Origin: Limisphaerales bacterium
GTDB lineage: Bacteria > Verrucomicrobiota > Verrucomicrobiia > Limisphaerales > UBA1100
Direction: 5' to 3'
Assembly: GCA_014382585.1 (NCBI GenBank)
Contig: JACNJL010000017.1
Location: 1 to 64,000, forward strand
DNA: 64,000 bases
The translations under genes were made by a program, and so were the position numbers. Positions 1 through 31,001 of the stretch are shown here, piece after piece; the first letter of the stretch is position 1, and every line of letters starts with the position of its first letter. The notes beneath the pieces were generated by a model. It was not told the DNA's origin. It saw only the letters and a program-made list of their open reading frames with translations, and searched no databases.

Positions 1-85
1 TGATCCCTTGAACCTTGGTGCTTGAACCTCAACCCTTCAAGGCGAGCGCAGCGAGCCTTTGGGGTTTTGGATTTCCGTGAAAGGG

Positions 86-288
86 AGGGCCGCCTCTCCG
101 AGGCGGCCAAGGCGCGCTCGGAGAGCACGCCCTATCTTGAGGCAGCTTCGCGCTGGAGGGACGAGCCTGCGAGTCCGCGGCGGCCAAGCGGCCAAGGCGC
201 GCTCGGAGAGCACGCCCTATCTTGAGGCAGCTTCGCGCTGGAGGGACGAGCCTGCGAGTCCGCGGCGGCCAAGCGGCCAAGGCGCGCT
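86..288. repeat. Hairpin repeat followed by 85-bp tandem repeats
   Basis: The segment opens with a perfect 9-bp hairpin (arms 88-96 and 100-108, loop TCC) bounded by AGGGC/GCCCT. From 104 an 85-bp unit is repeated: 104-188 and 189-273 are essentially identical, and a partial third copy starts at 274. Each unit holds the motif GGAGGGACGAGCC, also seen in the inverted repeat at 28388-28471. The hairpin type recurs at 29780-29831. This is a local amplification of a dispersed intergenic element; no protein function is apparent. Confidence 0.85.
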
Positions 289-5755: not shown

Positions 5756-5804
5756 TGTAGCCCGGGCCGGTGGCCCGGGCCCCGGACCACCGGTCCGGGC
5801 TACA
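5756..5804. repeat. REP-like palindrome, family B
   Basis: Two nearly perfect inverted arms of about 25 bp lie back to back between the FIST and trmB genes. The arm begins TGTAGCCCGGGCCGGTGG. Two substitutions distinguish the arms. The same arm type forms the larger inverted repeat at 11346-11421. No U-tract follows, so it is not a classic terminator, though the hairpin could protect the 3' end of the recA-FIST mRNA. Confidence 0.8.
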
Positions 5805-11337: not shown

Positions 11338-11345
11338 GGAATTTA

Positions 11346-11421
11346 ATGGTGCCCGGGCCGTTGGCCCGGGGGAAAAGCAGTGTGTTTGAAAACCCACCCG
11401 GGCCACCGGCCCGGGCACCAT
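11346..11421. repeat. REP-like inverted repeat, family B
   Basis: Two 25-bp arms (11346-11370 and 11397-11421) match at 24 of 25 positions and enclose a 26-bp spacer. The arm (ATGGTGCCCGGGCCGTTGG...) is the same type as at 5756-5804. The right arm reaches the stop codon of the FG-GAP gene, so the hairpin would form at the 3' end of two convergent transcripts. Confidence 0.85.
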
Positions 11422-14400
11422 TAGTTGCCGGGTTTTATGAGAGCGCCTTGGGGGGTGATTTCGATTTCGTCTTCGCCGATGGGGATGGGGGTGGTGATGG
11501 TTTGTCCGTGGGGCCATTGGACTTCGATTTTCACAGGAGCCGCAGCAGTAGATGGACGGGCAAGGATGAGCACGGCAGAATCTTGCGACCAATAGCCGGA
11601 ACCGGCGGTGACAATTTTGGCGGGGCCTTTTTTGTCATCAGCAAAAACCAAGCGGGCGATGGCGCCCACGCCGGTGGGATTCGTGGGGCCGGCATTGAAG
11701 CGGACGCGCAGGCCGGGGTGGCCCTGAACATTTTGGTACAGGTGGGTGGCGGCTCCATTTTGGCTGACCACGAGATCGGGGCGTCCGTCGTGGTTATAAT
11801 CTGCAACGGCGGAGCCGCGTTGTTCGCCGTAAATTTTAAGGCCGGATTTCTGACCGGGCACAGACAGAAAATCGCCTTTCCCGTTGCCGCGCAACAGTAA
11901 GCCGCGCCCGCCATCGCTGCGTGGGGTTTCGCTTTGGGAGGCAAAAAAGTTTTGAGCCACGAAGAGATCTTCGTACCCGTCGCCGTTGAAATCGGCAACG
12001 TTCATGCCGAACACCGGCGCGAATTGGGCTTCGGTCGGGAGTGCGCGCGGAATAAATGTGTTACCGCGGTTGAGGAAAAGCGTGTGGGAGAGGGTGTTAG
12101 CTTCCAGTGCTTTGCCGTCCTTGAGGCACTCGCCGTAAACTTTTTCCAGACTGCCCGAGCCGAATTGATTAAACGTTCGGTTGCGTTGGCCAATGAAGGG
12201 CATGGCGTTCATGGAACAGGAGCGGCCGCGTTCGGGAACCCATTTGCCGGTTTCTTTGTCGTAATGGTTTTCGACAATATCGATTACCCCATTGTTATCA
12301 AAATCGCCATAAGCCATCCGCAAGGGTTCGGTATTGGAGTAGGATTGTTCGTACTTGCTGTTGCGGCCCCAGTTGCCGGCGATAATATCGAGCCGGCCAT
12401 CGGCATCGAAGTCGCCGAGGGTCACGCTGTTCCACCAGCCTTGGTGGGTATCGAGTCCAAACGCTTGGGTGGCATCGGTGAATTTCCCGTCTTGATTGCG
12501 GAGGATTTTCACCGGACCCCATTCCAGAGCGAGTACGAGATCGGGGTCGCCATCGCCGTCGAGGTCGCCAAATACCGCGCCGCTGACGAGGCCCAGTTGT
12601 TTGAAGGCATCTGCATTTGTGTGATCGCGCTTCAATTCGCCATTTTGATTGATGAATAGTTGCGAGTCGGCCGGCTCGGGATAACGCTCCGGCACCATGC
12701 GACCGCCAAGGAAAAGGTCGAGGTCGCCATCGCCGTCCACATCGGCCAAGGCCATGGGGCCGGAGGTGGAGCGTTGGCTGGGCAGGGAAAATTGGATGGA
12801 AAAATTCTTGGCCGGATTCAGGCCGCGCAGGGGTGCCCGATCGAATGCTTTGCCGGGTGCCTCATAATTGGAAATGCCGGTGAGCAGCGTGGGCGCGGCA
12901 TCGGGTTTGGGGATCCATCCGAGAACGCCGGTTTGATCAAGATCAGCGACTGGGGCGCGGGCAATTTTGAATTGCCCGCCCGGTTGCCCGTGATAAATCA
13001 ACATCGGCCGTCCGCGGCCCGCAGCGATCACAAGATCCTCAAGGCCGTCCTGATTCACATCGGTCCAGGCCACGCCGGGGCCCAGTTGGCTGAGGCGATT
13101 GGGCAGCAGCGGTTGATACGCGAAATCATCGAAGGGGGTTTCCGAGTGGCCCACGCGCATTGGGCCGTCTGGCATTTGGATATCCAGTTTCTCAAAATCT
13201 TTTTTAAACAGCGTCTCCACGGGAGCGGGGGCCGGAGTCTGGTGCGGGCCATCCTCGCCTTGCGAAATCTCGTAAAGGTGGTTGGGCTTCACATTAGAAA
13301 TGACACGCCGGGTGAGGGTGCCCCGGTCGCGCCAGATGATTTCGAGTTTCAAGCCTTCAGTGAGGTTGCCGGTGCCAAAGACGGCCAGCGGATCGCTGCC
13401 GGAGGCGTAGCCACCGCCGCTGTGGATTTCCTGTTCTATCGGGGCCAGACCACTGGCATTACCGGGGCCGCCGAGGAGGCGAACTTTCGCACCGATGGCC
13501 TGCACGTTGCCGGGCCGACCGATGAGGCGGACGGCGACGCGCGGGGCGTTGGATTCGTTGCGATAAATTTCCAGCGGCTCGATGTTATTGAAAATAAGAT
13601 CAAGGTCGCCATCGCCATCAAAATCAGCCTGAGCCAAGCCGCCGGAAACGGCTTTGGTGTCAAAGCCCCAGTCACTGCCGCTCATAAATTCAAAGGTGAG
13701 GTCGCCCCGGTTGCGGTAGATAATATTGCGCGTGGGTAATGTAGGATAAACGGTCGATTTAAGAAGTGTGTTGATGGTGGATGTCCCTTGATTTGCATTC
13801 TCGATTTCCGCTGTGGCATCGGCATCCATAAAATCCCGAATCATTCCGGTGGCCACAATAAGATCTTCATAGCCATCCAAATCCACATCGGTGAAGGCGA
13901 GGCCCCAAGACCACTCGGAAGCTTTGACGCCGGCAAACTGTGCGATTTCCGTCCACGTGCCGTCGCCGCGGTTGAGGTGCAGCGTATTTTGCATGATTTG
14001 CGGACGATTATGAATGAGGCCAATGGCGGCATCGGTGGCCTGCATCATTCCCATTTGAGTTTTGCGCCGTTTATGTGAGCGGCTGAGCATATCCACAGTG
14101 ATGAAATCCAAATGCCCATCGCGATTGAGATCGGTAAAATCGATGCCCATCGAAAATTGGCTGGTGCGGCGCAGGGCGATGGGCTCGATCAGCGTAAAAT
14201 TGCCGCGGCCGTCGTTGCGCCAAAAGCGGTCGGCCCAGTCGAAGTCGGAACACACGTATAAATCCGGATCGCCATCGCCATCCACATCGCGGAATGCAGC
14301 TTCGTGGCTGGGGTCTTTGGGCATGGCGATGGGTCGGCCTTGTACATCGCGAAAGCGGTGGTCGTTATCCGTAACCGCGCGGAAGTTGCCGCGGCCGTCA

Positions 14401-28387: not shown

Positions 28388-28471
28388 CGGACCCGTAAGC
28401 TCGTCCCTCCATCGTGCTGAAACATGATGGCGCCCCAAAATATTTGGGAGGGACGAAATTGCGAGTCCGCA
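28388..28471. repeat. Inverted repeat with GGAGGGACGA arms
   Basis: Two arms of about 22 bp (outer ends 28388 and 28471) match at roughly 18 positions. The right arm (GGAGGGACGAAATTGCGAGT) resembles the motif repeated in the 85-bp units at 155-178 and 240-263. It occupies most of the 111-bp gap between two same-strand genes. Confidence 0.75.
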
Positions 28472-28487
28472 GCCACAATAATTTATT

Positions 28488-29783
28488 ATGAAAAAAACAA
28501 TCCTATTGCTCGCCGCCTTCGCTTTCGCCGCTCAAGCTGATTGGAAACAATGGCGCGGGCCGACCGGTCAAGGGCATGCGGACGCCAAACTGCCCACCGA
28601 GTGGAGCGAAACCAAAAACGTCAAGTGGCGCACGCCCATCCCGGGCAAAGGTTGGTCGTCGCCTGTGATTGAGGGCGATCAGATTTGGATGACCACTGCC
28701 TTCGAGACGGCTGCCACCGAAGCGGAAGCCAAAGAACGCCTCAAGAAAAATACCGGTGGCGTTCCGGTGAAAGTCCTTAGCAATGTGCAACTGCACGTCG
28801 TGTGCGTTGATAAACGCACCGGCAAACTGCTGCACAATTTTGAGGTCATCACCAAGAAACAGCCGCAGTGGGTTCACAAGCTCAACAGTTACGCTTCACC
28901 CTCACCCATCATTGAAGCCGGCCGTGTGTATTGCCACTTCGGCTCGTACGGCACCGTGTGCATCGACGCCAAAACCGCCAAGGTGGCGTGGCGGAATGAA
29001 AAACTGTGGGTCAATCACGAAAACGGCCCCGGTAGCACGCCGGTGCTTTGGAAGGATTTATTAATTTTCCACATGGACGGCAGCGACAAACAATACGTGG
29101 TGGCGCTCGATAAAAAAACCGGTCTCGAAAAATGGCGCACCGCCCGCACCGGCAAGATGAATGAAAACCCGCAGCTCAAAAAATCTTACGGCACCCCGCT
29201 TATCATTAAGGCTAACGGTCGCGACACGCTCTTTTCTCCTGCCAGCGATTGGCTCTACGGCTACGATCCCGCCACCGGCCGTGAGTTGTGGAAAGTTGCC
29301 TACGGGATGCTTGGGTTTTCCGTCGTGCCGCGCCCGGTCACCGGCCACGGCATGCTTTTTATGAGCACTAGTTTTATGCGATCGCAACTCCTCGCTGTCC
29401 GATATGAAAATACCGGCAAACCGGATATCGTGTGGAAATACAATCGCGGCGTCTCCAAACAGCCCTCGCCCATCCTTATCGGCGACGAGCTTTACTTTGT
29501 CGATGACAGCGGTGGGCTTGTTACTTGCCTCAACGCTCACACCGGCGACGTTCACTGGCGTGAACGTCTCGGCGGTAATTACAGCGCTTCCCCGCTGCAC
29601 GCCAACGGCAAAATTTATTTCCACAGTCGCGAAGGCATCACCACCGTGCTTCAAGCCGGCAAAACATTCAAAGTCCTTGCCAAAAATAAACTCGACGGCC
29701 AACACATGGCCAGCGCAGCGGTGGACGGCAACGCCTTGATTTTGCGCACTGACAAGGCTTTGTATTGGATTGAAAGCCGGTAG
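28488..29783 (+). CDS. Exported PQQ-like beta-propeller protein
   Basis: A 431-aa protein with signal peptide MKKTILLLAAFAFAAQA. It starts with WKQWRGPTGQG and shows repeated blades of the PQQ/BamB type (VVCVDKRTGKLLH, GTVCIDAKTAKVAWR, VVALDKKTGLEKWR, LYGYDPATGRELWK, LVTCLNAHTGDVHWR). The WRGP start and single-chain propeller are typical of exported PVC proteins of unknown role rather than true BamB. The stop codon lies at the edge of a strong hairpin repeat. Confidence 0.88.
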   Translation: MKKTILLLAAFAFAAQADWKQWRGPTGQGHADAKLPTEWSETKNVKWRTPIPGKGWSSPVIEGDQIWMTTAFETAATEAEAKERLKKNTGGVPVKVLSNVQLHVVCVDKRTGKLLHNFEVITKKQPQWVHKLNSYASPSPIIEAGRVYCHFGSYGTVCIDAKTAKVAWRNEKLWVNHENGPGSTPVLWKDLLIFHMDGSDKQYVVALDKKTGLEKWRTARTGKMNENPQLKKSYGTPLIIKANGRDTLFSPASDWLYGYDPATGRELWKVAYGMLGFSVVPRPVTGHGMLFMSTSFMRSQLLAVRYENTGKPDIVWKYNRGVSKQPSPILIGDELYFVDDSGGLVTCLNAHTGDVHWRERLGGNYSASPLHANGKIYFHSREGITTVLQAGKTFKVLAKNKLDGQHMASAAVDGNALILRTDKALYWIESR

Positions 29784-29831
29784 GGCGGTTTCTCCGAAAC
29801 CGCCGTGGCGCGTTCGAAGAGCACGCCCTAC
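29780..29831. repeat. Covarying hairpin repeat (same family as 86-134)
   Basis: A perfect 9-bp stem (29784-29792 with 29796-29804) closes on loop TCC, enclosed by GTAGGGCG/CGCCCTAC. The stem sequence differs from that at 88-108, but both strands have changed together so pairing is kept. It sits exactly after the PQQ-propeller stop codon. Confidence 0.85.
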
Positions 29832-29840
29832 CTTGCCGCG

Positions 29841-31001
29841 TCATTTGAATGTCACCTGCGCGCCCGGCTTGAGTGCGTGCTTGGGCATTTCTTTAAATGA
29901 ATGGAAATTGCGCATGGTTTCGAGTTTTTCGATGGTGTTTTTGCTTTCGTCGTACACACCCGTTTTGGCATCGAGCACGCCTTTTGCGTTCAGGCCCAAG
30001 TGCTTCACCATAAATGGATACATCGCTTGCCGTTTGGAAAGCTGATAGCCGTGGCCTTCTTTTGCGAAGTGGGTGTTCGCCGCTTTGGCTTCCGCGCCGT
30101 AGTATTTGTAAATTTTCCGGATGAACGGATGCTCTACCGTTGGCGTGTTCTTCGTCCAATCGCCGCCCACGGAAATGAGCTTCAACGGGCGCGGCGCGGC
30201 GAGTGCTGCGATCTCCGCGTTATTCGTTTCCAGCTGCTCGGTCTTGTGGATCGGCATGCCGCTTTCGCAATGGCAGCCGCCAAAGAAATGCGCGGACACC
30301 ATCACCACCGGCACACTCACCGCCACGCGCTCATCAATCGCCGTCAGCAAAAATGTCTGCGTGCCGCCACCGGAACAACCGGTCACCCCAATGCGTTTTG
30401 GGTCCACCTCCGGCAGTGTCTCTAGAAAATCGATCGCCCGCACGCTGCTCCACGTTTGCAGCGTGAGCGCCTGCGGATGGCTGTGTTTCCAGCCGAGATG
30501 TTCCGAATCGCCGAAACCGATCATGTCATACGAAAACACCACCGCCCCCATTCGCGCAAGTGTCGCACAGCGATGTTGCTGATCCGGCCGGAGTCGTCCG
30601 CCCGCGGGGCCGCGCGCATGGCCGTGTGGACAAAGAATGCCGGGACGTTTGCTTTTGAAACCCAGGGGCCGGTATAAATTGCCGTACACAAAAAATCCCG
30701 GTCGCGCCTCGAAGGCGGCTGCTTCCACGCTGTAGCCGTTATAGGTGCGTTTGTTTTTGATGATGGCTTTAAGCGGTGTATGCTTGGGTAACGGATTGAG
30801 CTTCGCGCCCGTGAGAATTTGCTGCCGCACGGCTGCCGCGCGGGTTTTCCATTCGGCAAGATCGGAATGCGTGGCCGCAAGCCGCGCAAGTTGTTTCACG
30901 GCATCCGCTTCGGAATGATAATGGCCAACGCACAGCGTGGGTTTCTCCGCCGCACGGGTAGCGAATGCAATTAGGGTGAGGGCTAGGAAGAGGTGTTGCA
31001 T
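29841..31001 (-). CDS. Secreted acetylxylan-esterase-like alpha/beta hydrolase
   Basis: A 386-aa protein with signal peptide MQHLFLALTLIAFATRAA. The alpha/beta-hydrolase core shows the nucleophile elbow GCSGG (Ser210), oxyanion region CPHGH, and candidate catalytic Asp (SVGGDWT) and His (KEGHGY). This resembles the AXE1/dienelactone-hydrolase-like esterases common in PVC glycan-degradation loci. It lies 38 bp downstream of the DUF1028 gene on the same strand, a likely two-gene operon. Confidence 0.8.
   Translation of the reverse strand: MQHLFLALTLIAFATRAAEKPTLCVGHYHSEADAVKQLARLAATHSDLAEWKTRAAAVRQQILTGAKLNPLPKHTPLKAIIKNKRTYNGYSVEAAAFEARPGFFVYGNLYRPLGFKSKRPGILCPHGHARGPAGGRLRPDQQHRCATLARMGAVVFSYDMIGFGDSEHLGWKHSHPQALTLQTWSSVRAIDFLETLPEVDPKRIGVTGCSGGGTQTFLLTAIDERVAVSVPVVMVSAHFFGGCHCESGMPIHKTEQLETNNAEIAALAAPRPLKLISVGGDWTKNTPTVEHPFIRKIYKYYGAEAKAANTHFAKEGHGYQLSKRQAMYPFMVKHLGLNAKGVLDAKTGVYDESKNTIEKLETMRNFHSFKEMPKHALKPGAQVTFK

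Follow-up and report, generated by a model that had tools for sequence, protein, structure and literature searches.

The window, by which we mean the whole stretch of 64,000 nucleotides analysed here, contains two full copies of a 54-bp repeat (family A), one close to its start and the other occupying the 57-bp gap between two convergent genes, at 28488-29783 on the plus strand and 29841-31001 on the minus strand. A preliminary description of this DNA had reported one hairpin at each place, at 88-108 and at 29784-29804, with a 9-bp stem and a TCC loop. Both hairpins were found at these positions as the left hairpins of their loci, and a second, inverted hairpin that had been overlooked was found in each (111-131 and 29807-29827). 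Judging from sequence features, a single half is a REP and the inverted pair is a REPIN, and the terms are used accordingly in the following list.

83-136, plus strand: REPIN copy 1 of family A (75.1 bits, E 3.2e-13), with the left head decayed to GGGAG and the right head CTATC
88-108, plus strand: left REP hairpin of copy 1, GGCCGCCTC-TCC-GAGGCGGCC, with a perfect 9-bp stem
109-110: spacer of copy 1, AA
111-131, minus strand: right inverted REP hairpin of copy 1, with a T.G wobble when read head-first and a C.A mismatch on the plus strand
155-221, plus strand: partial second family-A copy (34.3 bits) within an 85-bp tandem duplication, with the right half (196-221) intact
29779-29832, plus strand: REPIN copy 2 of family A, GGTAG...CTACC (80.0 bits)
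29781-29783, plus strand: TAG of the GTAG head, stop codon of the ORF at 28488-29783 (PQQ-type beta-propeller protein)
29784-29804, plus strand: left REP hairpin of copy 2, GGCGGTTTC-TCC-GAAACCGCC
29807-29827, minus strand: right inverted REP hairpin of copy 2, GGCGCGTTC-GAA-GAGCACGCC

Perfect hairpins with a 9-bp stem and a 3-nt loop were present four times in the 64-kb window, compared with zero or one in ten first-order Markov simulations, and an Rfam scan of the window detected two tRNAs and nothing else. A further TCC-loop hairpin, GGCGCGCTG-TCC-CAGCGCGC, was observed at 281-300, where the 85-bp tandem repeat ends. Several contig ends, including the start of the window, fall inside these repeats.

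Anatomy and dispersal of family A

The family-A locus is a 54-bp inverted hairpin pair and not a lone hairpin, in which a 2-bp spacer divides two REP palindromes with GTAG heads, with the consensus GGTAG-GGCGGTTTC-TCC-GAAACCGCC-NN-GGCGCGCTC-GGA-GAGCACGCC-CTACC; 54-bp doublets with this spacer predominate among the copies. Read from the GTAG end, each half consists of GTAG followed by GGCG-N5-TCC-N5'-CGCC, the right half of the consensus being GTAG-GGCG-TGCTC-TCC-GAGCG-CGCC on the opposite strand. The commonest loop is TCC, and the 9-bp stem and 3-nt loop fit the range of GTAG REPs (stem of 6-13 bp, small loop). The outer pair had initially been given as AGGGC/GCCCT, which cannot form simultaneously with the 9-bp stem, because GGC is common to both; the actual outer pairing is between the heads of the two inverted REPs, GGTAG and CTACC, and most copies have these at both outer ends. 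If read head-first, the right half shows a T.G wobble, which is a C.A mismatch on the plus strand, and, when folded as DNA, the wobble-carrying strand folds better (-20.8 versus -18.4 kcal/mol), with both halves folding best on that strand.

The further genomic copies that the preliminary description had called for were found by a covariance model of family A built from 28 distinct copies. In the 3.7-Mb genome that carries the window (G000), it gave 109 matches (best E 7e-16), which, with most places scoring on both strands, correspond to about 60 places dispersed across many contigs, a modest number for a REP family, and many more copies were found in sister species. Within the genus, each of the seven genomes sampled carries family A, which is absent from most other genomes of the taxonomic family. 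Several REPINs (L217, L224, L214, L012 and similar) were also observed to lie within or next to a long dispersed hairpin of another kind, CACAGAGGCACAGAGAACACAGAG...CTCTGTGTTCTCTGTGCCTCTGTG.

The second copy in the window had been described as lying exactly at a stop codon, which was borne out by the TAG at 29781-29783. Such a position is a known property, because GTAG REPs often provide the TAG stop of flanking ORFs (PMC3733652); a REPIN landing at the end of a gene could offer the TAG within GTAG as its stop codon. Of 56 element ends that had enough flanking sequence, 12 showed the TAG of GTAG closing an open frame that spans 150 codons or more, compared with 6.4% for other TAGs in the same loci, a crude comparison that concerns open frames and not genes.

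Stem covariation and the level of selection

Between the left hairpins of copies 1 and 2, three stem pairs differ and all three are compensated (C-G/G-C, C-G/T-A, C-G/T-A), as expected from the earlier remark that the stems differ with pairing kept. Among the 28 distinct full copies, there were 12 double-change cells versus 1.5 in shuffles. The expected covariation of the arms was also evident in a set of 33 distinct single REPs, mainly from verrucomicrobial loci, which were chosen by the head and stem base only, leaving the five inner pairs free, that is, sampled without regard to pairing. These inner pairs were paired in 93.3% of cases versus 78.0% in shuffles, with 44 double-change cells versus 16.4, and the covariation score of 0.383 (0.126 in shuffles) was reached by none of 500 shuffles, in which relatedness among the REPs remains. 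Slid-structure controls of the same set were 32-50% paired.

The copy at 29779 is kept at the same place in two sister species, G019, with 87% identity across the 2.2 kb aligned, and G020, with 80%, and the changes at this orthologous site in the three species are single and uncompensated: a C-to-T change giving T.G plus a loop change in G000, one loop change in G019 and one G.T in G020. At the same gene end, G018, G025 and G031 have their own TGA or TAA and the REPIN is absent; G016 has its own TAA, with one hairpin of the family-A type just after it. The orthologous sites checked showed a copy present, a partial copy or other sequence in its place, and none was a precise empty site. Because the changes at the 29779 site are single and uncompensated, we place the selection on the source copies, so that structure is selected in the mobile lineage and not at every fixed insertion, and the compensatory differences separate source lineages, with fixed copies drifting. 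The selection on structure proposed in the preliminary description is thus upheld by the covariation for the mobile lineage and does not extend to each fixed insertion.

A cognate RAYT and the competing explanations

The NCBIfam model REP_Tyr_transpos (NF047646; cut-off 80 bits) identified two RAYT-like genes in G000, namely RAYT-A (G000:C49:9188-9559), which scored 90.3 bits, and RAYT-B (G000:C37:1778-2161), which at 77.3 bits was slightly below the cut-off. In RAYT-A, which is 154 aa long, is listed with a TTG start and lies on the minus strand of L352 (1483-1947), the HLH and tyrosine motifs are intact, with the HLH and YI-NPV columns invariant across its clade. The protein matches the solved TnpArep structure 4er8 with an E of 2.5e-6; with Pfam Y1_Tnp it scores 20.7 bits, under the 23-bit cut-off. 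A family-A REPIN that contains both REP orientations and is identical to dispersed family-A copies ends 9 bp upstream of the RAYT-A start codon, and downstream a partial family-A REP provides, with its TAG, the stop codon of the gene. A RAYT gene, which had been suggested as something to look for in the same genome, is thus present among the family-A repeats.

A tree of 29 RAYTs gave a support of 98/99 to the RAYT-A clade, which has eight rows; seven of these adjoin GTAGGG[C/A]-headed REPs, one such REP type also adjoining a RAYT outside the clade. A search with the clade profile added two strong members to it, one from G007 (229.9 bits) and one from G015 (193.5 bits), and both proved to be flanked by GGTAGGG REPs, a prediction that was open to failure. 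These associations support RAYT-A as the RAYT matching family A, for which REP binding and cleavage are predicted.

With both strands counted, matches to family A were the most numerous in the genus in G000 (91) and G019 (97), both of which carry RAYT-A, and numbered 29 in G016, 15 in G017, 44 in G020 and 11 in G021, four incomplete MAGs in which the clade profile did not detect RAYT-A despite their family-A copies. A higher copy number in the presence of RAYT-A is suggestive only, because these assemblies, which are all draft MAGs, differ in completeness.

The exact 26-mer GGTAGGGCGGTTTCTCCGAAACCGCC was also seen in betaproteobacterial, Oscillospiraceae, Kiritimatiellae and Lentisphaerae assemblies (L062-L181, among the matches listed), and outside the genus it is, among those matches, usually paired with an inverted ...CCCTACC partner hairpin. 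Horizontal transfer is not claimed from this cross-phylum identity, as the scan selected that exact stem and the clade profile search gave no strong RAYT-A clade member in the tested betaproteobacterial genomes bearing the 26-mer.

The window contains members of all three repeat families recognised here. The second, REP-like family, GGAG-GGACGAGCCTGCGAGTCCG, was observed at 155-177, 240-262 and 28389-28469, the last being an inverted pair. Repeats of the sequence GGAGGGACGAGCCTGCGAGTCCG lie to either side of RAYT-B, and the second family was seen to flank both RAYT-B and its counterpart in G019. The third family, GTAG-CCCGGGCC-GGT-GGCCCGGG, occurs in the window as a doublet (5757-5803) and as a variant pair (about 11344-11423), and RAYT-C (G019:C58) is flanked by its GTAGCCCGGGCC-GGT-GGCCCGGG repeats. 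Within one genus, each of three RAYT lineages is thus linked to a REP family of its own, which offers a natural test of the joint divergence of RAYT specificity and REP sequence.

It is very probable that the two hairpins first noticed in the window each form the left half of a copy of the same REPIN family, whose cognate RAYT gene is in the genome. The RAYT/REP type of hairpin recognition put forward in the preliminary description is supported by the dispersed copies, the covariation and the RAYT gene among the repeats, and neither of the two results that it had named as refuting arose; the movement itself may be presumed. What counts against this explanation is that four sister genomes, although incomplete MAGs, have copies with no detectable RAYT-A, that the orthologous sites checked included no precise empty site, that individual orthologous sites show no compensation and that the copy number is modest. 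By analogy with known TnpAREP biochemistry, each REP would fold in single-stranded DNA, and a RAYT, an HUH/tyrosine nuclease, would recognise GTAG and the stem-loop on one strand, cut near the ends and help to copy the doublet to a new place; RAYT-A may act likewise here and spread the doublet. The compensatory differences between the hairpins could arise because the inner stem letters matter less to the enzyme than shape, head and loop do, which would allow paired stem changes as source lineages diversify.

It is improbable that the hairpins are instead kept at gene ends as intrinsic transcription terminators or to stabilise mRNA, with a likeness between copies that is convergent or host-selected. 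The position of copy 2 between convergent genes would suit this explanation, as would several orthologous intergenic sites that carry different palindromic repeats depending on the species, as if a hairpin were wanted there. However, the 54-bp near-identity over tens of sites, including the GTAG heads, loop and orientation, exceeds what a terminator needs, a T run does not consistently follow the hairpins, and a cognate RAYT lies within family A. Least likely of all is that the IS200 transposase at G000:C30, and not a RAYT, moves the repeat as a MITE-like or IS200/IS605-type element, as the G000:C30 gene is the one clear PF01797 transposase in the genome but is of the IS200 type (80.3 bits versus 19.6 bits for RAYT) and has no family-A hairpin beside it, unlike RAYT-A, which sits within family-A repeats.

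The IS200-type gene (L031) was found set among GTCGCGAAGCGACG / AGCTGCGGGC-TATCAGCCCGCAG repeats, which are of a different type. From PF01797 alone, with this gene as the sole match, G000 had appeared to have no RAYT, which was overturned by the NF047646 match to RAYT-A. Similarly, no family-A hairpins flanked the Y1_Tnp loci scanned (30 and then 47), because the Pfam model misses RAYT-A. Since this standard transposase model misses such genes, REP-bearing and seemingly RAYT-free genomes need a RAYT-specific model.

Different palindromic repeats were observed at the same intergenic spot in sister species at G000:C53:26929, C26:205249 and C57:88503 and their orthologues. Some species have REPIN family A at such junctions, and their sister species have ACAGAGGCACAGAG hairpins, hairpins of the GGGACGAG type or further repeats. 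As a tentative and rather doubtful extension of the REPIN explanation, certain intergenic junctions of the genus might be taken repeatedly by whichever palindromic repeat is active, in which case REP-like elements would be swapped for one another in the role of bidirectional hairpins, as terminators or transcription insulators, and selection would retain them there.

Comparison with known systems

Family A resembles the REPINs, or REP doublets (Bertels and Rainey 2011, PMC3116915), in being a dispersed inverted REP doublet that is foldable as a hairpin and RAYT-linked, and it shares with them the reported greater conservation of doublets than of singlets and the common occurrence of compensatory changes. 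Unlike those REPINs, it has a variable spacer of only 2 bp, halves that differ in the stem (a heterodimer) and about 60 copies. It is also like the GTAG REPs of PVC bacteria, in particular the GTAG-17/19 dimers of Opitutus terrae (Di Nocera et al, 2013, PMC3733652), which, compared by description only, share the GTAG head, the stem of 6-13 bp, the small loop, the 1-2 bp separation, the TAG of the head as a stop and the phylum.

RAYT-A has the HUH and tyrosine motifs of RAYT/TnpAREP proteins and, like them, is a single gene flanked by REPs of the same family (Nunvar 2010, PMC2817692; E. coli TnpArep structure 4er8; PMC8266576). TnpAREP binds the folded single-stranded REP in a strand-specific manner, and GTAG matters for its cleavage, which occurs at a CT adjoining the REP (PMC8266576). 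RAYT-A differs from known TnpAREP in being divergent, 154 aa long and below the Pfam Y1_Tnp cut-off, with a downstream REP that is partial. On the features compared, the system is classified as a REPIN with its RAYT. Because GTAG REPs with 1-2 bp spacers have already been reported from O. terrae, a verrucomicrobium (PMC3733652), the novelty lies in one REPIN family and its RAYT, the kind of element being known, and the system provides a worked REPIN-RAYT case for Verrucomicrobiota.
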